Shown here: positions 3,664 to 17,631 of the stretch, one piece after another
Layout of the letters: each line of letters opens with the position of its first letter
Numbering within the stretch: position 1 is the first letter of the stretch
Origin: a virus
Reading direction: 5' to 3' (one strand)
Virus record (IMG/VR): IMGVR_UViG_3300025009_000358
Span: 1-25,285 of that record
DNA: 25,285 nt
Position numbers and translations under genes: made by a program
The notes under the pieces: model-generated
The model's input: the letters and a program-made list of their open reading frames with translations, nothing else
Databases searched by the model: none
Told to the model about the DNA's origin: nothing

Positions 3664-6491
3664 CAGACTTCCTCTGATCTTGATGTAGATTCATATTCTG
3701 AATATTCAGCAATATATGTTTCGGTATTGTCCACCGCAGGGTCAGAATCTGGAATCTCTTTCCCACTGGCAACCGTTCTCGTAAAATTGCCATCGGTATC
3801 AGTAGCTGACTTTTTTAATCCTGCACTTGCACCTGCCATCCACACATTTACACGCGAGCTGCTTTTCTCTATACAGTTCCCTTTCAGGACTATTGAATTC
3901 ATAACCGGGACAAGCCCGCCGGATATGGCGTTTCCGTTTGCAAGACTTCCCAGCGAGGCTTGAGCATCGTCAACAATCCCTGAATCCATGAACACTATTC
4001 CGGCAGAATCTACACGAAAGTTTCTGGCCGCGCACGCAGAAGCCATCTCCTGTAAATGGCTGATAATGTTGTCTCCCTTTTGCACCCATGCCCATGGATG
4101 GATATAAGCCACATCGTTCGTGTCTACCCCAATCCAGTCGTATGTTCCGGCTTGTCCGTCATCATATGAGATTATCCCCGATGAGCCATCTGTTGCGTTG
4201 AGTATCCACCAGTCAACTTCTCCGCCTCGCTTGAGCATTGCGCAATCGAGAGGAACATCGGTAAACCCGCCGGCGCCGGAAAGCAATACAATCCTCATCC
4301 TGTTTGACGTCGAATCTGTTACGGTGTGCGATACAGACCACCGTTCCCACCCAAGACCGCCATGAGTATATGCAGCATCGGTATATCCGGTACTTGTTGC
4401 CGCCAAAGATTCGCCACACCTGATCGTACCGACAATGGCACTCGCAGAATATATCCATATCGACGCGTTGAATACGTCTCCGATTGAAAGCGAATCTTCT
4501 CCGGCAAACGTGACGTACTGCTGAATGAGTTGCCCGTCGCTTGCGGTTAGCTTTCCGCAATATGATCCTGCAAGCATGGCCGTGGTATCACGCGCCAATG
4601 TTCCGGTCGTCAGCCATGAGTCGCCTATCGTTGCATTTTCAAATCCAGAGTTTCCCAGGTAGTTGGTAAACTCTCTCCTGGTAACAATCCGCGCAAGCTC
4701 GTGGAACAATGAGTTGATTCCGTCTTCCTGCGCCAGCTCATAATTTTCCCACTTGTACGATCGTCTTGCTGTCTTGCGCCCAAGCTCCGTCATGGCATCT
4801 TCGGCGGATATTGATATGGTAGACAATCCTCCAACGCTTGTTTGCCGTGGAAACGTTCCTTGCGGAATCATTCCGATGAATATCCGTTCAAAGTCAGGAT
4901 CTCGATTTATACAGTATGTCGAAGGCAGGCCGGCCACAAGCTTTGTAATTTCAGTTTGCGACAGCGCCCGGTCATAGATGCGAAACTCTCCTATGGTGCC
5001 AAGCAACGTTTCGCCTATTGTCAATACGTTGGTTGCAGGCTTGACCATGGTCAGCCCGGCAATGGTCTCTATCAATGTTCCGTTTCTGTATATCAGAATA
5101 CTTCCGGCGGTATAATTTAAAACCACCGTAACCATTGCCTGAACTCCGCTGTATCCGGTGAAAAATGTATTTGCCCCCGCCCCCTCGATGCTGTCGCCGT
5201 CCCAATAGGCAATCCTCAAGATTGCGCTGTTGGCGTCAGGGCGACGGATTGAAAAATGGTCATCTTCGGATTGAAACAAGTATTGTTCAAGCGCGCCTGA
5301 TTGCTCGGTATTAACCCACGCATTGATTGTCATTATATTGGAAAATGCAAACTCCGGGATTGTAACGTGGTCGGCTACTCCATCTAACGACAGCGCCGCT
5401 CCGTTGGTTTCAGCAACCGCTTCGCATCCGCTTATCAATCCATGCAAGCAGTTCCCTGAATAATCAATCAAGGCATATCCATCAGACACGGCAGGGACTC
5501 CAGAAGAGTCAAGCAAACACACCGCATCGTATAGGTCTGGATCGTTGTCGGGTTTCTTGCGCCATTCTTCTATTTCCAGCCCTACCTTCCGCGAAAGATA
5601 ATGTTGATCCGAAGTCCCATTGTATGATCCGACCTCTGGCGCAAACGTTGCGAACAAGTCAGTGTTGAATTCTCCCGACAGATTCAAAAGCGACAATGAC
5701 GCGCTTGATGCCTTGTATCCGGCTGGCCTGTTGATTGAAAACGATGTCACGCAAGAAGTATTTTCTCCGTCGACATTGCATCGTGTTTTCCCGACAGCGT
5801 TTTTTTCAAAGTCCCAGAATATCTCTTCATGCCCTACGTGGGGGAATCCAGTCCGCACCTCATCGTAAGTGGCCGCTACGTCCGGGACAAGGCGGATATA
5901 TTTTATGTCATATGCCCCGGTACCGACGATCATGACAGGAGTGTTTTTGATATCAGCTGATGTCAGCGTACCGAACAACATGCTGTTTCCCTGATACAGG
6001 GTAGCGGTGTCGCCATCCTGTACGTGCGTGAACCTGATCCACTGTTGCAGTTGGAGGTTGGATGCAAATACGATGTCGTCGCGCGCCAATGTTTCCACGC
6101 TCGCGCCAATACCTATATAGCTGGCAAAATAGTCTCCGGTACTTTCGTAGTACAACGCAAACCTGTCTTTGTCTGTGAGCGTGACTTCGGACGCAAATTG
6201 TACAAGCGCGGTGTCGCTTGCCACATTGTATGCAAACTTTGGTTTCGCCATTATCTGCAAGGTGAATATTGCTGGGTTGAATCCTGACAACAGATAGGTA
6301 AGCGTAGCGTTCTCGCTTAACGCAAACCGTCCTGGTACGTGTATCTGGTCAGTGGATGCAAGTTCTATGTATGCCGGAGTGCCTGATATCGGAGCATATT
6401 CTTTGCCGCGCGGATCGATGTAAAATCGAACCTCGGAATTGAAATCCTTGTCCCTGGAACTGCGCCCGGTTTCAGACAAATACTTAATCAT
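3663..6491 (-). CDS. Large tail hub / baseplate protein with lectin-like insertions
   Basis: This 942-residue protein lies where the tail hub or tip protein belongs, after the chaperones and before the fibre. Hub-like segments at about 255-320, 525-610 and 795-900 appear to be interrupted by carbohydrate-binding-like modules. The clearest is residues 330-520, a laminin-G/concanavalin-like domain with ALIDYSGN, AALSLDGVADHVTIP, INAWV and the closing GEFRIYDRALSQTEI motif (501-515). A second jelly-roll region spans about 60-205 (FTLQIMAKPKFAYNV...WIRFTHVQDGDTATLYQ). A third at 612-755 (NSGFENATIGDSWLTTG to RMRIVLLSGAGGF) resembles CBM4/9-like domains. The start at 6491 overlaps the preceding stop by eight bases and has GGCGGAAG just upstream. 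The protein is likely a receptor-contacting tail tip. Module boundaries are approximate. Confidence 0.7.
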   Translation of the reverse strand: MIKYLSETGRSSRDKDFNSEVRFYIDPRGKEYAPISGTPAYIELASTDQIHVPGRFALSENATLTYLLSGFNPAIFTLQIMAKPKFAYNVASDTALVQFASEVTLTDKDRFALYYESTGDYFASYIGIGASVETLARDDIVFASNLQLQQWIRFTHVQDGDTATLYQGNSMLFGTLTSADIKNTPVMIVGTGAYDIKYIRLVPDVAATYDEVRTGFPHVGHEEIFWDFEKNAVGKTRCNVDGENTSCVTSFSINRPAGYKASSASLSLLNLSGEFNTDLFATFAPEVGSYNGTSDQHYLSRKVGLEIEEWRKKPDNDPDLYDAVCLLDSSGVPAVSDGYALIDYSGNCLHGLISGCEAVAETNGAALSLDGVADHVTIPEFAFSNIMTINAWVNTEQSGALEQYLFQSEDDHFSIRRPDANSAILRIAYWDGDSIEGAGANTFFTGYSGVQAMVTVVLNYTAGSILIYRNGTLIETIAGLTMVKPATNVLTIGETLLGTIGEFRIYDRALSQTEITKLVAGLPSTYCINRDPDFERIFIGMIPQGTFPRQTSVGGLSTISISAEDAMTELGRKTARRSYKWENYELAQEDGINSLFHELARIVTRREFTNYLGNSGFENATIGDSWLTTGTLARDTTAMLAGSYCGKLTASDGQLIQQYVTFAGEDSLSIGDVFNASIWIYSASAIVGTIRCGESLAATSTGYTDAAYTHGGLGWERWSVSHTVTDSTSNRMRIVLLSGAGGFTDVPLDCAMLKRGGEVDWWILNATDGSSGIISYDDGQAGTYDWIGVDTNDVAYIHPWAWVQKGDNIISHLQEMASACAARNFRVDSAGIVFMDSGIVDDAQASLGSLANGNAISGGLVPVMNSIVLKGNCIEKSSSRVNVWMAGASAGLKKSATDTDGNFTRTVASGKEIPDSDPAVDNTETYIAEYSEYESTSRSEEV

Positions 6492-6837
6492 TGCTTCCGC
6501 CTGTTGACTCGTAACTGCGTTCCATCGTACTTACAATATCCCACCACAAGCATGGCTGGTCAAGGCTGCCTCCGGCATTCGGAGGTAGCTTCATTGATCG
6601 CCATTGCTTCCACATTTGCACTGCCTCCCAAAAATCCTCGGTCGCATAATCAGGTAGCGTATTGCGCTGTACCCTGACCCCGAATTCAGGTATCGCTTCC
6701 TGTTCCGACAACAGTATTGTAGTCGGAACCGCCTTCAGCTGCCGCGCTGTTTTTTCGTCGAAATATCCTTTGCTCCAGCAGTAGAAGGCGATTCGGAGTT
6801 TTTTAGCATCTCGTGGTTGCCTCCTTGCTTCTGCCAT
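6484..6837 (-). CDS. Tail assembly chaperone, frameshift extension (gpT-like part of a G-GT system)
   Basis: This 117-codon frame overlaps the upstream chaperone gene by 103 bases in the -1 frame. It is Trp- and Lys-rich (FYCWSKGYFDEKTARQL, WEAVQMWKQWRSMKLPPN). In lambda and many siphoviruses the equivalent frame is expressed only as a fusion to the upstream protein after ribosomes slip by -1. Here the slippery heptamer at 6798-6804 joins the two frames exactly, predicting a fusion of about 221 residues. The ATG at 6837 could also be used, but the only strong SD-like sequence (AAGGAGG) lies downstream of it, so independent translation looks unlikely. The fusion would bind the tape measure and recruit tail tube subunits, as known for lambda gpGT. 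Confidence 0.72.
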   Translation of the reverse strand: MAEARRQPRDAKKLRIAFYCWSKGYFDEKTARQLKAVPTTILLSEQEAIPEFGVRVQRNTLPDYATEDFWEAVQMWKQWRSMKLPPNAGGSLDQPCLWWDIVSTMERSYESTGGSND

Positions 6838-7148
6838 ATATCATGAGCCGCTATGCACAGCATGAAGCTGATGATATGATCTTCATCAGGATATGACAAC
6901 AGCTTGTCCAATGCATCAAGCGGTTCGCCTTTTGAGTTTGTGAGGTTGCGTATTCCGATGACACATTTGTTGAGTAGCGCCTCGGTGCCAGGCATGGGCC
7001 CTTTTGCCTTGTCGAGCAGTTCTATTTTTTCACGGTTGGTCAGTGCCCGGTAGTCGATGGCCACTCGCTCGGATTCAGGCAACGCATTTTCTTCCTTCAG
7101 GTATTCCACATACCAAGTTCCGCCGAGCACGGCTTCTTTCAAAATCAT
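6735..7148 (-). CDS. Tail assembly chaperone, short form (gpG-like)
   Basis: This 137-residue, mainly helical and acidic protein lies directly after the tail tube genes, the standard place for the siphovirus tail chaperone. It begins MILKEAVLGG and carries a helical core (ALTNREKIELLDKAKG) and a C-terminal helix (DHIISFMLCIAAHDIWQKQ), followed by a low-complexity Ser/Lys tail past residue 117. That tail starts exactly where the slippery sequence lies, as expected if it is only the zero-frame ending of a frameshift gene. The start has AAAGGG six bases upstream. The assignment rests on position, size and the frameshift architecture more than on sequence recognition. Confidence 0.75.
   Translation of the reverse strand: MILKEAVLGGTWYVEYLKEENALPESERVAIDYRALTNREKIELLDKAKGPMPGTEALLNKCVIGIRNLTNSKGEPLDALDKLLSYPDEDHIISFMLCIAAHDIWQKQGGNHEMLKNSESPSTAGAKDISTKKQRGS
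6798..6804 (-). promoter_or_regulatory. -1 programmed frameshift slippery heptamer A AAA AAC
   Basis: In the mRNA sense the chaperone frame reads CTA AAA AAC TCC, so the heptamer A AAA AAC sits in the X XXY YYZ register of the zero frame (codons 116 and 117). A slip of one base back gives AAA AAA CTC, exactly the frame of the downstream overlapping ORF. Fifteen bases upstream is an SD-like AAGGAGG, which may act as a stimulator as in E. coli dnaX, although the spacing there is nearer ten. Only a weak CTCC...GGAG stem is visible downstream. Confidence 0.82.
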
Positions 7149-7160
7149 GCAACGCCCTTT

Positions 7161-7574
7161 CTACGATGTCGAGATTGCAACGCCACCGGAGCAATGGAAC
7201 GACGCGCTGAAACTTGCTACCCCGGCAACCTCGGTTCCGATCTGCACGTTGGTAAGATTTGCCGCAGACGCCGTGTATTTCAATTTGCTCCCTGCGGTTG
7301 CCGACACGATGAACACGACAGCAGCCGCAGCCAATGTACCCGCTGATCCAATCATGTCCAGCATGAGATTCTGTTGAGCGCTGGTTGACAGGTCTCCGCT
7401 GATCTGCCCGGATGCGTTGCGCAATCCCATCACCGAGGTAGTGTCTGCGTTCCCGAATGCCGTGGTGTCATTGTTCCCTACGTCTACCGTCATGCTCCAG
7501 TTTTTTATATTGGCTACGGCAGTCCCGCCATACGTAACCGATCCAAGAACACCTTTCATGCTTGTAGTTGCCAT
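7161..7574 (-). CDS. Major tail tube protein, second copy
   Basis: This 137-residue protein has the tail-tube signature GSVTYGGTAVANIKNWSM, then an acidic strand with DVGNNDTTAFG, then G-L-R-N-A-S-G-Q-I-S-G-D-L, as in the phage tube families with K-x-W-S and S-F-G-D motifs. The C-terminal strand reads IQIGTEVAGVASFSASFH. It is a clear paralogue of the gene immediately upstream, with equal length and near-identical core motifs. AAGGAGGG six bases upstream marks a strong start at 7574, consistent with high expression. It would form the hollow tube polymerised around the tape measure, or a minor variant of it. It is followed by the chaperone pair. Confidence 0.8.
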   Translation of the reverse strand: MATTSMKGVLGSVTYGGTAVANIKNWSMTVDVGNNDTTAFGNADTTSVMGLRNASGQISGDLSTSAQQNLMLDMIGSAGTLAAAAVVFIVSATAGSKLKYTASAANLTNVQIGTEVAGVASFSASFHCSGGVAISTS

Positions 7575-7586
7575 TCCATTCCCTCC

Positions 7587-8000
7587 TTATGTTGACCGCG
7601 CTACGCCACCTGACAGGTGGAACGACGCGCTGAAACTTGCTACCCCGGCGACTTCGGTTCCGATCTGGATATTTGTAAGGTTCGCTTCTGACGCTACAAA
7701 CTTCCACGCCTGAGGGGATGCCGTAGACAATATCAAATGAAGTCGTACAGACGTAAGAGTCCCGGTGCTTGACACCATGTCAAGGAATCCGTTCTGGCTT
7801 GCGTCTGTTGATAGGTCACCTGCGACTTGTCCGCTTGCATTGCGCAGTCCCATTACCGATGTCGTGTCGGTGTCGCCGAATGAACTGGTATCATTGTTGC
7901 CGACATCTACGGTCATCGACCAATTCTTGATATTGGCTATTGTCGTTCCTGCAAGCGCCCCGGTCTTTACCGAACCGCTTACGCCTCTGAAGACTGCCAT
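7587..8000 (-). CDS. Major tail tube protein, first copy
   Basis: This 137-residue paralogue of the following gene shares IANIKNWSMTVDVGNNDT, TSVMGLRNASGQ and the C-terminal GTEVAGVASFSASFH. The middle of the protein (about residues 75-105) differs most between the two, so the exposed or lumen-lining region has diverged while the tube fold is kept. A strong SD (AAAGGAGA) lies seven bases before the ATG at 8000, and the gene overlaps the end of the zinc-ribbon gene by 22 bases. The last codons contain a 6-bp inverted repeat (7606-7620) that the second copy lacks. Which copy is the bulk tube subunit cannot be told from sequence. Confidence 0.8.
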   Translation of the reverse strand: MAVFRGVSGSVKTGALAGTTIANIKNWSMTVDVGNNDTSSFGDTDTTSVMGLRNASGQVAGDLSTDASQNGFLDMVSSTGTLTSVRLHLILSTASPQAWKFVASEANLTNIQIGTEVAGVASFSASFHLSGGVARST

Positions 8001-8146
8001 GTGCTCTTCTCCTTTCGAGGCTTGTCCGCCTCAACAAACGGAACCATGATACTTCCACACGGCAGTCCGTCCGATAATTTCTCTATGCAAAACTTCGGGC
8101 CATTGCCGTCAATGACCTTCCCGCACGCGGTACATTTCAGCTTCAT
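7979..8146 (-). CDS. Small zinc-ribbon-like protein
   Basis: The 55-residue product has four cysteines at positions 5, 8, 20 and 30 (KCTACG ... KFCIEK ... GLPCGS), a spacing that fits a small zinc ribbon. An upstream in-frame start exists, but the ATG at 8146 is preferred: it overlaps the preceding stop (ATGA) and has AAGGGG about eight bases upstream. It lies between the MptE-like gene and the tail tube genes. Its role is unknown. A transcription or translation modulator, or a chaperone cofactor for tail assembly, are guesses only. Confidence 0.65.
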   Translation of the reverse strand: MKLKCTACGKVIDGNGPKFCIEKLSDGLPCGSIMVPFVEADKPRKEKSTWQSSEA

Positions 8147-8862
8147 GCAATGCCCCCCTTTATCGTCAATATCAAATCGTCGCAATCAATCAATGCGCCT
8201 TGCAATTGCCATAGAGTTTTGTTTGCCGCCTCGACAATCAATTTTTGCTTTTCAATATCACCTTCAAGATCATGTTTTCGTTTTTCTATGATCGAGCATA
8301 CCACATCATAGTCATCGTAGCCATACCATTGTTTACACACAGACAGTTGCGATTCTTCCGGAGCCACAAACAGTATTCCGCGCTCCCTTGCAACACCAGC
8401 GTAATACTTCACGCCTCCACGCTGATGCGCATACTCTGATCGATGCGCCATGTTGATCCCGTATAGATATATTTCTTTGTACCCAAGATGGATTGCATAA
8501 GCCATCATGTACGCAACCGTAGAAGTGAATTCAGCCCCGACATTGGCGGCTATCGCATCGACAGGGTACGATTCAGACAACGGCATAAGCGGATCGTATT
8601 TGAGCATCACCACCGGAATAGAAACGGAATTGATCGCCGAGATCCTATCGCTGCAGTCTTTGTGCATTTCAAATAGCGCATCGACGCGATGGACGTCGTT
8701 CCACTGGTCATCTGATGTTGATGCTGTTTTATCAACTCCCAAAGATTTTGAATAAGCCGCGCTTGATATTGCCCATATGTCATATGATGTATCTGCATAT
8801 GGAGCGTCGCGTTTTGATGCAGTTGATCCGATTATGCAAACCTTGTCATTTTTTCTGAGCAT
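8143..8862 (-). CDS. MptE-like / DUF115-like Rossmann-type protein of phages
   Basis: The 239-residue product opens with KVCIIGSTASKRDAPYADT, a nucleotide-binding-like loop after the first strand. It continues with YDIWAISSA, an aromatic FEMH motif near residue 65 and, around residues 110-145, the helix-strand core FTSTVAYMMAYAIHLGYKEIYLYGIN followed by SEYAHQR (key residues only). I recognise this layout from phage and bacterial proteins related to 6-hydroxymethylpterin diphosphokinase MptE and DUF115, some of which are glycan-linked. The last 45 residues form a charged coiled coil. Its ATG shares one base with the tape measure stop (TGATG). Lying in the tail operon, it could modify a virion protein or a nucleotide-linked sugar, but the substrate is not visible. 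Confidence 0.55.
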   Translation of the reverse strand: MLRKNDKVCIIGSTASKRDAPYADTSYDIWAISSAAYSKSLGVDKTASTSDDQWNDVHRVDALFEMHKDCSDRISAINSVSIPVVMLKYDPLMPLSESYPVDAIAANVGAEFTSTVAYMMAYAIHLGYKEIYLYGINMAHRSEYAHQRGGVKYYAGVARERGILFVAPEESQLSVCKQWYGYDDYDVVCSIIEKRKHDLEGDIEKQKLIVEAANKTLWQLQGALIDCDDLILTIKGGIA

Positions 8863-10688
8863 CAGAAACCCCTCTGGTCATGCTTGACCGCACCGACCGC
8901 CAACGATTGCAACTGCTGTGTCGTCCAGATTGACCCTGATATATTCTGGACGATTGTTGTCCCCCCACCGCTTTGCATCCCGCCTTTGCTGTGAGGAACA
9001 AACGCAAAATCTTCTTTCCCGGCCTCTCCCGCTAAAAACAATGTAGGTTTATCAACAGTGCCAGACCCACCTTCCGCCATCGGTATCGCCCTTACCAGTC
9101 CGGCGGTTGTATATGCAGCCGCTGACAACGCTGTATATCCAGCTCCCTGTACGATGTTGCCAGTCAAAAACGCTTTCCCCGCCAATAGCCCAAACTCAAG
9201 CGCATATGATTCAATGACAGCGGCCACAGCTTCAAGCCCGGCTTTTGCAAAACTTTTCCAAAGTCCTTCGCCCTCGAGCAATGAATCCGCCATTGTTTTA
9301 CCCATTGCGGAGTACGCGGATTCTGTTGCGTCTTTTAGTCTTTCCTCTTTTTCTATAACCGCATCAAGTGCTATGCTTGACTCGCCTATTTGTATAGTCC
9401 AGTCGCCCCATGCGTCAGATATCTGCTTTACATCATTTCCGCTATCAATAGTTTGTTCAAGCCCTTTGTTTAATCCATCAAGCAAGCCCCATGTAGTCAA
9501 TACATCATCGCCCCATTCCTCGAATACGGCATCCATTGCGTCTATGTTTTTTAATGCGTCGGCGTCGTCTTTTGCTCTTTTTTCAGTATACTTGGCTAAT
9601 TGTTCTGCATTTTTTATTTCAGATTCGGCGGCTGAATCAGTACGACCTTTATATAGTTCTACAAGTCTTATCTGTTCTTTTATCGCCTTGATCTCATCTT
9701 CTTTGGATTTTATGGAAGAGTCAACTCCGCGCTTGTCATATTGTGTTATACGCTTTTGTTGTAAATCAGCAAGCTGTTGTTCTGCGACGAGAAGTTTATC
9801 CTGATTGCTTGCAGTACCATTGGCAGTACGATCCATCGCTTCGTTAAAATCATTCTGCGCTTTAAGAGCGGCCCCGATACCTTCCGCCATTCTGATCCAT
9901 GCTTCGCGCCATGGCTTCAAGTCTCTTGATATTGATTGGCCTAATTCTTCGTTAAGATCGCCTAGCGCGTTGCCAAGTTTCACTTTTACTGCGCTGGCGG
10001 TTTCTCCGGCCGCTCGCGCCGCTCCGCCAAACTCGCTGGCAAGCTCGCCCATGATTACTTTTTGAGCGCTGGCTATATCGTCAACGGCCATGAAGGATTT
10101 GACCATCTCGGATTGATCATCGGTAAGCTGGACGCCCACCTTGCGCAGTGCGCCGATACCCTCGATCGGCTCGTTGAGCGCCTTTCCTATCTGGACTATC
10201 GCTGTCTGGAGGTCGCTTCCCATGACCGTTGACATATCCATGGCGGTCTCTATGACTCCAGGGAATATGTCTCCGCCGATTTCCTTGAACGTCAACAAGA
10301 CGGCCTGCGCTGCTATTGTCGTCTCGTCTCCGAACTTCGTGACTTTCTGTAGCTCCAACGCCATGCCATGTAGTTCTTTGCTTGTCAATCCTACTATGTT
10401 CCCGGTTGACTTCAGCACAGCCTCAAGGTTCGATGTGGCAAATTCCTGCTGCGCCCAAGAATCCTCAAGCGCATCGGTGACGGCCTTTATTTTTTTAAAC
10501 GCATCGATGACCATCTTCCCGGCGGCTACCGGGCCTTGCATCACGTCGCGCATCCTGGCGAACGTAGCCCCAAGAGTTGTATTTGAGTCGCCGGTTTCCT
10601 TTGCTGTGCGCTGGTATTGTTTCAGCTTTCCGACAGCCTCGGCAACGTCGGCTTTTATCTGCAGCTTTAGCTCTTCAACCGTTGCCAT
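8862..10688 (-). CDS. Tail tape measure protein
   Basis: This 608-residue protein sets tail length and is probably ejected with the DNA. The N-terminal helix (MATVEELKLQIKADVAEAVGKL) and core (EPIEGIGALRKVGVQLTDDQ, preceded by an Ala-rich helical domain) match the conserved region of siphovirus tape measures. Residues about 270-390 are charged coiled coil. Residues about 480-550 are strongly hydrophobic (GLLAGKAFLTGNIVQGAGY), fitting a membrane-penetrating segment. The C-terminus is Gly-rich (SKGGMQSGGGTTIVQN). At about 0.15 nm per residue the tail would be near 90 nm, which is short to medium. The ATG overlaps the upstream stop (TAATG). Unusually, it lies before the tail tube and chaperone genes. 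Confidence 0.88.
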   Translation of the reverse strand: MATVEELKLQIKADVAEAVGKLKQYQRTAKETGDSNTTLGATFARMRDVMQGPVAAGKMVIDAFKKIKAVTDALEDSWAQQEFATSNLEAVLKSTGNIVGLTSKELHGMALELQKVTKFGDETTIAAQAVLLTFKEIGGDIFPGVIETAMDMSTVMGSDLQTAIVQIGKALNEPIEGIGALRKVGVQLTDDQSEMVKSFMAVDDIASAQKVIMGELASEFGGAARAAGETASAVKVKLGNALGDLNEELGQSISRDLKPWREAWIRMAEGIGAALKAQNDFNEAMDRTANGTASNQDKLLVAEQQLADLQQKRITQYDKRGVDSSIKSKEDEIKAIKEQIRLVELYKGRTDSAAESEIKNAEQLAKYTEKRAKDDADALKNIDAMDAVFEEWGDDVLTTWGLLDGLNKGLEQTIDSGNDVKQISDAWGDWTIQIGESSIALDAVIEKEERLKDATESAYSAMGKTMADSLLEGEGLWKSFAKAGLEAVAAVIESYALEFGLLAGKAFLTGNIVQGAGYTALSAAAYTTAGLVRAIPMAEGGSGTVDKPTLFLAGEAGKEDFAFVPHSKGGMQSGGGTTIVQNISGSIWTTQQLQSLAVGAVKHDQRGF

Positions 10689-11056
10689 TATTTGGCCTTC
10701 TCTTCGGCGATGGCGGACTTGACTGCCGCTTTGATGGTTGACCTCATCTTGGCACGCGCAGCTTTTGCCGCCGGGCGAATGTACGGATGTGCCAGCCTGC
10801 TCTTTGATCCATACTCCGCAATGTTGGCGTATACCGATTTGATGTACACAAACCCTGCATGGAGCATCGGCGAGTAGTACGTTTTCAGGTCTTCCTTGAT
10901 GTGCACTCCGTCCGGCTCTGGATCATACGGAGCGTTCTTTACAGCTGATATGTAAGCGGCATCTGTTGCGATCTTGATTATCTCGTCTGATATTTCTTCC
11001 GGGATGTTTTCATACCCGAACTTTCCGAGCGTACCTTTGATGCTGAGCGTAATCAT
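10688..11056 (-). CDS. HK97 gp10-like neck/tail protein
   Basis: This 122-residue protein belongs with the HK97 gp10-like family (PF04883). It shows the N-terminal helix (EEISDEIIKIATDAAYISA), the motif KNAPYDPEPDGVHIKEDL, and the C-terminal pattern A-E-Y-G-S...A-H-P-Y-I-R-P-A followed by a basic Ala/Lys-rich helix. These proteins act at the head-tail or tail-terminator interface. It overlaps the upstream DUF3168 gene (ATGA) and the downstream tape measure (TAATG), so it is translated as part of a tight block. The canonical order stopper, gp10-like, tail terminator is slightly permuted here, because gp10 follows the terminator. Confidence 0.82.
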   Translation of the reverse strand: MITLSIKGTLGKFGYENIPEEISDEIIKIATDAAYISAVKNAPYDPEPDGVHIKEDLKTYYSPMLHAGFVYIKSVYANIAEYGSKSRLAHPYIRPAAKAARAKMRSTIKAAVKSAIAEEKAK

Positions 11057-11448
11057 CGTTCATACTCCGGCGTCCAGTATACCATTCCGTGCCACCACTG
11101 CTCGTCTTGATCCCTGACCACGCGAGGCCCCGACGCAACCGAAAATATTACGTTGAGGTCTGTAGTCAAAGCCCCAGTGAATCTGTTCAACGCCGTGGCA
11201 AGCAGATTGCCTATCGCTACGCAACTAGATGCGTTCTTCGAGAAGATGTCAAACTGTATTTCAGGTTGCGCCGTGTTTGTCGAGCTGAATGAATACGGCT
11301 CGTTGCTCGGCGTTACAAGCTGATACCGGATATGGTCGGTATCAAGCTCATCTGGTGCCGCTCCATAATACACGTCGCTCCCGATGTACGCGGTTATCGC
11401 GGTCTGGGTGAGCATCCATGTATTGATTGCGGCTTCGATGGTTGCCAT
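11053..11448 (-). CDS. Tail terminator / tail completion protein (DUF3168)
   Basis: The 131-residue product matches DUF3168 (PF11367): an N-terminal helix (MATIEAAINTWMLTQTAITA), then GSDVYYGAAPDELDTDHIRY, a central strand with Q-P-E-I-Q-F-D-I-F-S, and the helix CVAIGNLLATALNRF. It ends with a W-H-G-M-V-Y-W strand. Family members form the ring that caps the tail tube and joins it to the head. The ATG shares a base with the stop of the stopper gene (TAATG), and its own stop overlaps the gp10-like gene. Spacing and position between stopper and gp10 support the call. Confidence 0.8.
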   Translation of the reverse strand: MATIEAAINTWMLTQTAITAYIGSDVYYGAAPDELDTDHIRYQLVTPSNEPYSFSSTNTAQPEIQFDIFSKNASSCVAIGNLLATALNRFTGALTTDLNVIFSVASGPRVVRDQDEQWWHGMVYWTPEYER

Positions 11449-15723: not shown

Positions 15724-16059
15724 CTATTCGTAGACTACGACGACCGACCATGTAAGCCCGGCCGCGTTCGTCTTTGTTATGACTAGATCGTCATCGCTCC
15801 TGAGATAATGCGGGCGAGTCGGTTGCCAGCTGTAATCAGCAAGCCCGTTCATGGCTTTGGTATCAAGCACGGCATCGTAGCGCTCGTTTATCCCGGAATC
15901 GATTTTGACAATAAAGTCCTCGGCAGCGCTCGCGGCGCTTAAGTGCAACCGAACCTGATGCACCGCGATTTCCTGCGCTTCGATGGCGGTTGACGTTCCC
16001 GCCATCTGTTTGCACCGGAGCAGGATCGCTCCTACTCCGTCCGCCGTGTAGTACTTCAT
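15724..16059 (-). CDS. Small beta-rich phage protein, decoration-like
   Basis: The 111-residue product begins MKYYTADGVGAILLRCKQM and has a strand-rich body (IAVHQVRLHLSAASAAEDF, VKIDSGINERYDAVLDTK) ending ADYSWQPTRPHYLRSDDDL. Similar short proteins of unassigned role lie next to capsid and connector genes in other phages. The ATG at 16059 overlaps the previous stop (ATGA). An in-frame GTG at 16080 is possible, but the ATG fits the coupling seen across the operon. A hairpin of 7 bp with a 3-nt loop (16063-16079) lies just upstream of the ATG. A domain with one tight beta-sandwich is likely. Confidence 0.6.
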   Translation of the reverse strand: MKYYTADGVGAILLRCKQMAGTSTAIEAQEIAVHQVRLHLSAASAAEDFIVKIDSGINERYDAVLDTKAMNGLADYSWQPTRPHYLRSDDDLVITKTNAAGLTWSVVVVYE

Positions 16060-16757
16060 AGCTGGATGCAGCGCATCCACTCCACCGTAGCAGTTTTCGC
16101 GGCTGCCGCGCCATTGGCGTAGAACAGCGATGGCGTCAATACCGCCGTCGGGAATCCTGCCGACATGCTCGTTACCTCGACACCGTCATGGTAGTACGTG
16201 ACCGTGCCGACCCCATCATAGTAAATCTCGTACAGCATCGACGACGTAGTGACAGCCGTCGCGGAGTTTACCGAGCTTGCGGCAGCGGCTTTCAATGCCC
16301 CGGCGACCGCTACAGTTCCGCCATCAACCTTGTAGAAATAAATCCCGTCGGAGGAAAGGTTGAGCGCGTGCGCAGCCATCAGCGTGGTATCGGTATTCCC
16401 GAGCCCGACAAACAAGTCGGACTGCGTGGCGTCGGATATCGCTATCTTGGCGCCAAAGTACAGCGGATGACCTACTGCGAGCTGGAACGGCGTACCGACT
16501 ACCTGGAGGTTCGTGCTGTCGTTTTCGTTCGCGGCGTTGGTAATCAGCGCACGTTGCCCGGCGGTTGTGCCCTGCGCGATGACTGTGGTACCGGCACCGA
16601 TATCGACATAGGTAACCGTGTACTCGCATGCCGTTGTGAAGTCAGACCCGAACCGCATTTCCCATTCGCGGACATCCGGCCCGACGGCTTTTACGAACCT
16701 GTAATCGTAATCGTCATAATAGACGAGGGTTGATCCAACCCATCTGCTTTTGATCAT
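16056..16757 (-). CDS. Virion protein, paralogue of the preceding gene
   Basis: This 233-residue protein is a diverged tandem copy of the 237-residue gene upstream. Shared blocks include VREWEMRFGSDFTTACEYTV, LQVVGTPFQLA, PLYFGAK, FVGLGNTDT and the terminal WMRCIQ. The body is a beta-sandwich of the lectin/jelly-roll type by appearance (G-x-x-Y-F-G-A-K strand, D-L-F-V-G-L strand, Y-Y-D-G-V-G-T-V turn). AAAGGAGGG nine bases upstream of the ATG at 16757 indicates strong expression. A head-surface decoration or fibre role is inferred from its location after the capsid gene. Confidence 0.7.
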   Translation of the reverse strand: MIKSRWVGSTLVYYDDYDYRFVKAVGPDVREWEMRFGSDFTTACEYTVTYVDIGAGTTVIAQGTTAGQRALITNAANENDSTNLQVVGTPFQLAVGHPLYFGAKIAISDATQSDLFVGLGNTDTTLMAAHALNLSSDGIYFYKVDGGTVAVAGALKAAAASSVNSATAVTTSSMLYEIYYDGVGTVTYYHDGVEVTSMSAGFPTAVLTPSLFYANGAAAAKTATVEWMRCIQL

Positions 16758-16769
16758 GCTGGCCCTCCT

Positions 16770-17483
16770 TTAGACGATCTGGATGCAGCGCATCCAGTCA
16801 ATGGCACAGGTTTCCGCCGCACCAGTCGCGCTCGACTGGAGCACGATGGACGGAGTCAATACGACGGTAGGAACATACGTGGTATGAGTCGCCATCAGCA
16901 CGCGGTCAAGGTAGAAGCTCAGCGTCCCGCTTCCGTTGTATAGGAACTCGAACACGTGAGCGGACGTATCAAGCACCTCCGATGCCGTGGTAGTGACGCT
17001 GTTGGCGTGTATCTCGTTGTATGCCACAAGCGCCGTTGACGACAGCGCATACCATCCTGCCGCGCTGGCTGCAATGTCTATCGCATGCGCCGCGATGATC
17101 GCGGTGTCAGTCGATGCCAGTCCTACAAAGAAATCGTTTCCGTCTGCGGTGTTGAAATCCAGTTTCGCCCCGAAGTACAGCGGCTTGTTTGCGGCGAGCT
17201 GGAACGGGGTTCCGACTACCTGGAGGTTGAGACCAGAGTTTGCTGCCGCTGCGGTTGTTATCAGCGCTCGGCGTCCTGCTACGATGCCCTGGGCTATCGT
17301 ATCGGCTCCGATGACCGTTGCCGTGTATTCACACGCGGTTGTAAAGTCGCTGCCATAGCGCATCTCCCATTTCCGCACGTCGCGGCCAATGGCGTCGATC
17401 CATGACGCTTCGCTTGCCTCGTCGTAAAAAACGAGATTGTCGCCAGTTGCGCCAGCGATCATTCTGCTTTTAGGCGCTCCCAT
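16770..17483 (-). CDS. Virion protein, first copy of a tandem pair (decoration-like)
   Basis: This 237-residue protein begins MGAPKSRMIAGATGDNLVFY and shares VRKWEMRYGSDFTTACEYTA, NLQVVGTPFQLAANKPLYFG, FFVGLASTDT and the C-terminal DWMRCIQIV with the gene downstream. Both appear to be single beta-sandwich domains. AAAGGAGA six bases upstream supports the ATG at 17483; a longer in-frame start would run far into the small gene upstream. The gene overlaps that small gene by 14 bases. It sits two genes after the major capsid protein, where decoration proteins are usual, although it is longer than the usual 100-150 residues. Confidence 0.7.
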   Translation of the reverse strand: MGAPKSRMIAGATGDNLVFYDEASEASWIDAIGRDVRKWEMRYGSDFTTACEYTATVIGADTIAQGIVAGRRALITTAAAANSGLNLQVVGTPFQLAANKPLYFGAKLDFNTADGNDFFVGLASTDTAIIAAHAIDIAASAAGWYALSSTALVAYNEIHANSVTTTASEVLDTSAHVFEFLYNGSGTLSFYLDRVLMATHTTYVPTVVLTPSIVLQSSATGAAETCAIDWMRCIQIV

Positions 17484-17631
17484 TGCGCTTCTCCTTTGGC
17501 TGTCTGTCAGCCTGCTTGTGGATCTTCTCCGCAAAGCCAATTGATATCAGCTTCACGTCCGTGGCTTCTCCGCGATCCACTACGTCCCCTGGCTTAAAGT
17601 CTAGCCAGGGGACAAGTAATTTTACCGCCAT
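17470..17631 (-). CDS. Very small conserved capsid-proximal protein
   Basis: The 53-residue product reads MAVKLLVPWLDFKPGDVVDR, then a DVKLISIGFAEKI segment and a basic tail ending KRNGSA. Proteins with this V-K-L-L-V-P...F-K-P-G-D-V-V pattern and an S-x-G-x-A-E turn are common just downstream of phage capsid genes and are probably small structural or assembly proteins. Its ATG shares one base with the preceding stop (TGATG) and no clear SD is visible, so translation probably depends on coupling. A perfect 11-bp hairpin lies inside its coding sequence, starting 18 bases after the start codon. Confidence 0.72.
   Translation of the reverse strand: MAVKLLVPWLDFKPGDVVDRGEATDVKLISIGFAEKIHKQADRQPKEKRNGSA
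17584..17613 (-). promoter_or_regulatory. Perfect 11-bp RNA hairpin inside the small capsid-proximal gene
   Basis: In the mRNA sense GTCCCCTGGCT pairs perfectly with AGCCAGGGGAC across an 8-nt loop. It covers codons 7-16 of the 53-codon gene and starts 18 bases after the A of the start codon. No U-tract follows, so it is not an intrinsic terminator. It may dampen translation or protect mRNA 3' ends between the heavily expressed capsid unit and later genes. The structure is seen; the role is inferred. Confidence 0.6.

Follow-up and report, generated by a model that had tools for sequence, protein, structure and literature searches.

A probable tail assembly chaperone cassette with -1 frameshifting at A_AAA_AAC in a siphovirus morphogenesis cluster and its metagenomic relatives

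The minus strand of a 25,285-nt viral stretch (IMG/VR record IMGVR_UViG_3300025009_000358, analysed as a whole and hereafter called the window) very probably encodes a siphovirus G/GT-type tail assembly chaperone cassette, expressed by -1 frameshifting at A_AAA_AAC. This reading, put forward in the initial annotation, is supported by the location of the cassette after two major tail genes, by the cassettes of seven relatives and by the missing start codons in several of their second frames. The frameshift mechanism, of the lambda G/GT kind, is already well known, and AAAAAAC has previously been proposed as a slippery site elsewhere. The present analysis adds a family of frameshifted chaperones that the libraries searched (Pfam, PHROGs and PDB sequences) do not recognise, and allows eight sites to be annotated correctly as a fusion. 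It further indicates that phages use the same A_AAA_AAC design even where no sequence similarity between their chaperones can be detected. The evidence is computational and draws on few homologues, mostly from metagenomic contigs.

The features of the cassette and of its surroundings are collected in Table 1. ORF1 and ORF2 are two frames in a -1 relation that share 103 nt, as had been described, and the heptamer lies in the proposed X_XXY_YYZ register, with codons 116 and 117 of ORF1 reading AAA and AAC in the 0 frame. The computed length of the ORF1-ORF2 fusion, 221 aa, likewise agrees with the approximate size given in the initial annotation. Upstream, the -1 frame is shut by a TGA at 6843, and so is open for just 36 nt 5' of the heptamer. 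Given that A6C occurs eight times on the 25-kb minus strand, only about 0.01 in-register copies would be expected by chance in the 103-nt overlap.

Table 1. Features of the predicted frameshift cassette and its surroundings (window positions unless a relative is named).
Feature	Position	Strand	Remarks
ORF1, short (G-like) chaperone, 137 aa	6735..7148	-	L002 homologue, 45% identity
ORF2, -1 frame (T-like) extension, 117 aa	6484..6837	-	L002 homologue, 48% identity
Slippery heptamer A_AAA_AAC	6798..6804	-	
AAGGAGG, SD-like, candidate stimulator	6820..6826	-	Strong anti-SD pairing
Predicted downstream stem, 5' arm GAATCGCCTTC	6784..6794	-	Core CGCCTTC, 6790-6784
Predicted downstream stem, 3' arm GAAGGCGGTTC	6726..6736	-	Folding
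Inner helix, 5' arm CTGCTG	6776..6781	-	Folding
Inner helix, 3' arm CGGCAG	6739..6744	-	Folding
Second predicted hairpin GTTCCGAC/GTCGGAAC, inside ORF2	6702..6729	-	Folding
Major tail protein genes, two in tandem, adjoining the cassette on its upstream side	7161..8000	-	PHROG 10528
Tape measure protein gene, 5' of both major tail genes	8862..10688	-	PHROG 27166
GAGG 7 nt before the heptamer in relatives	L002:2999-3002, L008:3559-3562, L009:7144-7147, L013:4049-4052, L016:5283-5286		

Direct scans of viral contigs with the cassette returned L002 at most, which holds both ORFs and an identical CTAAAAAACTCC core. The remaining relatives were reached by scanning with the tape measure protein and then by local profile searches, which yielded cassettes in L008, L009, L014, L015, L016 and L013/L017, with ORF2 profile matches in L008 and L009. 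Counting the near-identical L013 and L017 once, the relatives comprise seven distinct metagenomic loci (eight with the window), located on separate contigs and 18-48% identical to the window. The annotated phages of the collection contained no recognisable cassette relative, and a search of genome contigs found no chaperone relatives. The L013/L014 group shows no more than weak profile similarity, and was admitted on position, frame relation and an ORF1 profile match to L014 (9e-5).

An in-register heptamer is found at the junction in all seven distinct relatives, as A6C in L002, L008, L009, L015 and L016, and as A6G inside an A9 run in L013 (with the near-identical L017) and L014. The conservation of the heptamer, which the initial annotation had left to a comparison of homologues, is thus borne out, and none of the relatives combines a broken heptamer with two intact frames. 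The extent of the first frame is variable. A 0-frame stop lies directly 3' of A_AAA_AAC in four relatives (L008:3570, L009:7155, L015:5709 and L016:5294); the first frame continues past the heptamer for 20 codons in the window and for 2 in L002, where the 20-residue tail of the window protein is missing, and it also continues in the A6G group. Homopolymers are typical error sites, and the frame break could in principle stem from a sequencing error or from a recent mutation in a single gene. Yet the identical break and heptamer recur in seven distinct relatives, on separate contigs and at this degree of divergence, and we attach next to no probability to such an origin.

The second half of the predicted fusion is conserved as a continuation of the first, given the behaviour of profiles that span the junction, a motif placed at the heptamer and the missing starts. 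Fusion profiles built from the window plus L002 match those of L008 plus L009 through the junction, over 182 columns (probability 98.2, E 5.6e-14); L008 plus L009 match L015 plus L016 with an E of 2.5e-13, and the window plus L002 match L015 plus L016, again through the junction, with an E of 9e-8. A conserved K-N-L-x-x-A-x-x-x-W motif begins at the heptamer itself. No start codon lies ahead of this motif in the second frames of L008, L015 and L016, the first one being found 180, 189 and 72 nt 3' of the heptamer, respectively, and in L009 a start codon is found only 3' of the first-frame stop. Judged from their sequences, the second half would not be independently startable in L008, L015 and L016. 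Since the second half is kept as a continuation, and lacks a start of its own in these three relatives, we favour the FRAMESHIFTING reading.

Alternatively, ORF2 might be a separate gene overlapping ORF1, translated from its own ATG at 6837 with no fusion being made. Indeed, the window and L002 each have a -1 frame ATG 33 nt 5' of the heptamer, and their first four ORF2 codons alike spell MAEA. However, a conserved Ile-Trp pair of ORF1 spans this ATG and accounts for its being kept, and no SD-like sequence precedes the ATG in the window. Moreover, the lack of a start before the conserved part in L008, L015 and L016, the late start of L009 and the alignment of fusion profiles across the junction all argue against a separate gene, an arrangement that we regard as very improbable; ATG 6837 is probably not used.

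In the frameshift scenario, most ribosomes would translate ORF1 to its stop and produce the short chaperone. A minority would pause with tRNAs on AAA and AAC, helped by the RNA stem downstream and perhaps also by the upstream complement of the anti-SD; a slip of one base backwards would then let the two tRNAs pair anew in the -1 frame, and translation would go on through ORF2 to yield the 221-aa fusion. If lambda is a guide (PMC5009743), the tape measure protein would be bound by the short part and the major tail protein recruited by the extension. We infer that the slip takes place in vivo, as well as how efficient it is, what each stimulator contributes and which proteins are bound. A point against this scenario is that, at least in Escherichia coli, A_AAA_AAC shifts less readily than A_AAA_AAG (PMC5009743).

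The candidate upstream stimulator, AAGGAGG, is present 15 nt 5' of the heptamer, as had been noted. Its conservation among homologues was not confirmed: in the window it constitutes Gln-Gly-Gly codons, which L002 spells differently, and thus the exact element is not kept. Some anti-SD complementarity can nevertheless be found at all eight sites, with varying position and sequence, and the best pairing in the 24 nt before the heptamer exceeds that of coding controls (combined p 3e-5; window alone 0.003). In five of the seven relatives a GAGG ends exactly 7 nt 5' of the heptamer, a pattern spotted post hoc. A conserved Glu codon accounts for it in part, but GAG followed by G represents just 10-31% of the Glu codons there. 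The window is without GAGG at that spot, and its stronger AAGGAGG sits 8 nt further out. As for the suggestion that the stimulator design may be unusual, this is not clearly so, since 15 nt is just beyond the 9-14 nt that a review gives for stimulatory SD spacing in -1 shifts (PMC5009743) and within the 6-17 nt covered by a genomic search for SD elements (PMC4066793). We also considered AAGGAGG as the start signal of an ATG at 6809, which would open a 24-aa frame-0 peptide at a spacing of 10 nt; this is unlikely, given that the other three AAGGAGG copies on the strand lie 6-7 nt before gene starts.

Downstream of the heptamer, the initial annotation had seen no strong stem. This proved wrong: a strong stem is predicted, with a 7-bp core, a 7-nt spacer after the heptamer and a large apical region, and was probably overlooked because its arms lie about 50 nt apart. 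The 80-nt fold of the window reaches -29.7 kcal/mol, versus -18.5 in synonymous-codon shuffles (z -2.97, p 0.003, an optimistic value, as the length was picked after the folds had been seen). The local fold is weak and unremarkable at 50-60 nt and becomes strong only at 70-100 nt; a short local hairpin (-7.8 kcal/mol) was dropped as a stimulator, being no better than synonymous shuffles. Among the relatives, L015, L016 and L009 have compact strong hairpins that begin 0-6 nt 3' of the heptamer, and the downstream structure of L002 and L008 is not significant against synonymous shuffles. Pooled across the eight loci, synonymous shuffles give a combined p of 1e-4 for the 80-nt folds and of 0.0016 for the 50-nt folds. 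A second predicted hairpin, with 8 perfect base pairs, begins just 3' of the ORF1 stop and adjoins the predicted frameshift stem.

This enrichment in downstream structure points to ribosomes, and so bears on whether the fusion could be made from an mRNA altered by transcriptional slippage on the A run. An A run is indeed present at every junction, with nine As in L013/L017 and L014, a length at which transcriptional slippage has been documented (PMC5009743). The window and five relatives, by contrast, have just six to eight As followed by C, in a fixed X_XXY_YYZ register. We therefore consider a transcriptional origin of the fusion extremely unlikely, and retain ribosomal frameshifting as the preferred explanation.

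The slippery site of lambda is G-rich, versus A_AAA_AAC here, and the SD of E. coli dnaX is closer to its slippery run, at about 10 nt. The cassette resembles lambda G/GT in its overlapping frames within a tail cluster, with a -1 shift, predicted for the window, shortly before the first frame ends and a less abundant product that bears a C-terminal extension (PMC5009743); it differs in that the tape measure gene is downstream in lambda and upstream in the window, and in that the family libraries return no chaperone match for it. With dnaX it shares an A6 slippery run, and its candidate SD stimulator upstream and predicted stem-loop downstream have counterparts there, although dnaX uses A_AAA_AAG, shifts with about 50% efficiency and yields the shorter product upon shifting (PMC5009743). 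A stem-loop a few nt 3' of the heptamer, as in dnaX, is predicted in the window, with a large apical region. Parallels in heptamer come from other phages. In Acinetobacter phage vB_AbaS_Loki (gp12/gp13, LN890663), the AAAAAAC proposed for the chaperone lies directly before the first-frame stop and is followed by a hairpin (PMC5313236), a layout similar to L008, L009, L015 and L016 but not to the window, with its 20 further codons. In Loki, as in L002 and L016, a gp10-like gene separates the chaperone from the tape measure; the Loki chaperone proteins have no detectable homology to the window cassette. AAAAAAC has likewise been proposed for the pre-tape-measure chaperone of phiCbK-like phages (Caulobacter phage phiCbK gp93/gp94; PMC3556154), phiCbK being a different and much larger phage that is likened here by slippery site. 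A further case is the archaeal virus HCTV-2 (PMC5009743), and Paenibacillus phage Dragolir may be another (PMC6003738). Finally, the tape measure protein of Rhodobacter phage RcRhea is among the closest named relatives of that of the window (35% over 42%); RcRhea, likened by layout, has the usual order of major tail, frameshifted chaperone and tape measure, unlike the window.

The assignment as a tail chaperone rests on position and frameshift architecture, because the cassette proteins have no match in Pfam, PHROGs or PDB sequences and AlphaFold models of each half are of low confidence (mean pLDDT 42 and 54, two-row alignments). A frameshifted cassette encoding some other protein pair would fit this absence of a sequence or fold match to known chaperones. 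Nevertheless, the cassette of the relatives has major tail-like genes on one side and tape measure genes on the other, the usual site of such chaperones, and the annotated phages Loki and RcRhea have a matching layout; we thus give another protein pair a very small probability.

The window as a whole is a siphovirus morphogenesis cluster, read from right to left. The order begins with small and large terminase, portal, protease, major capsid, adaptor, head closure and tail terminator, and continues with neck (gp10-like), tape measure, a 239-aa protein, the two major tail proteins and the cassette, followed by a 942-aa LamG-domain protein, a 276-aa protein and a pectate-lyase-like protein. The cassette therefore adjoins the major tail genes, but the tape measure gene is upstream of both, and in the stretch 6484-11448 the neck and tape measure genes come first, followed by the 239-aa gene, the two major tail genes and then the cassette. 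In L002/L021, L008, L009, L013, L014, L015 and L016 the cassette instead comes ahead of the tape measure gene, with LamG placed after the tape measure in L002/L021, L013, L014, L015 and L016. L002 and L016 have the neck gene after the cassette and ahead of the tape measure; in L013 and L014 (weak matches) it is found ahead of the 239-aa gene. Misassembly of the window is argued against by its junctions, which are tight start-stop overlaps. The independent contig L011, whose head closure, terminator, neck and tape measure are 57-79% identical to those of the window, likewise shows the order terminator, neck, tape measure, though the contig stops within the tape measure gene. A scan with the LamG protein for further contigs of swapped order returned the L002 contig alone. 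Such a rearranged tail block provides a natural test of whether the order of major tail, chaperone and tape measure genes matters for assembly. A more speculative scenario, which we consider unlikely, is that the tail block was rearranged, with the tape measure transcribed before major tail and chaperone, and that the frameshift signal was retuned alongside, through a long-range stem, an SD moved outward and a 20-codon first-frame extension, keeping a workable short-to-long ratio.

Several other genes of the cluster have noteworthy relationships. The tandem major tail genes are 67% identical to each other, and related copies number two in L002 and three in L009. The 239-aa protein (8143-8862) has a weak, below-cutoff match to the sialyltransferase CST-I (E 0.0024); its homologues precede a major tail-like gene in L002 and L013-L016, and are present in two copies each in L008 and L009. 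Downstream of the major capsid gene, two neighbouring genes (16770-17540 and 16056-16757) look like an old tandem duplication, as either one matches both homologues in L011 and in L016.
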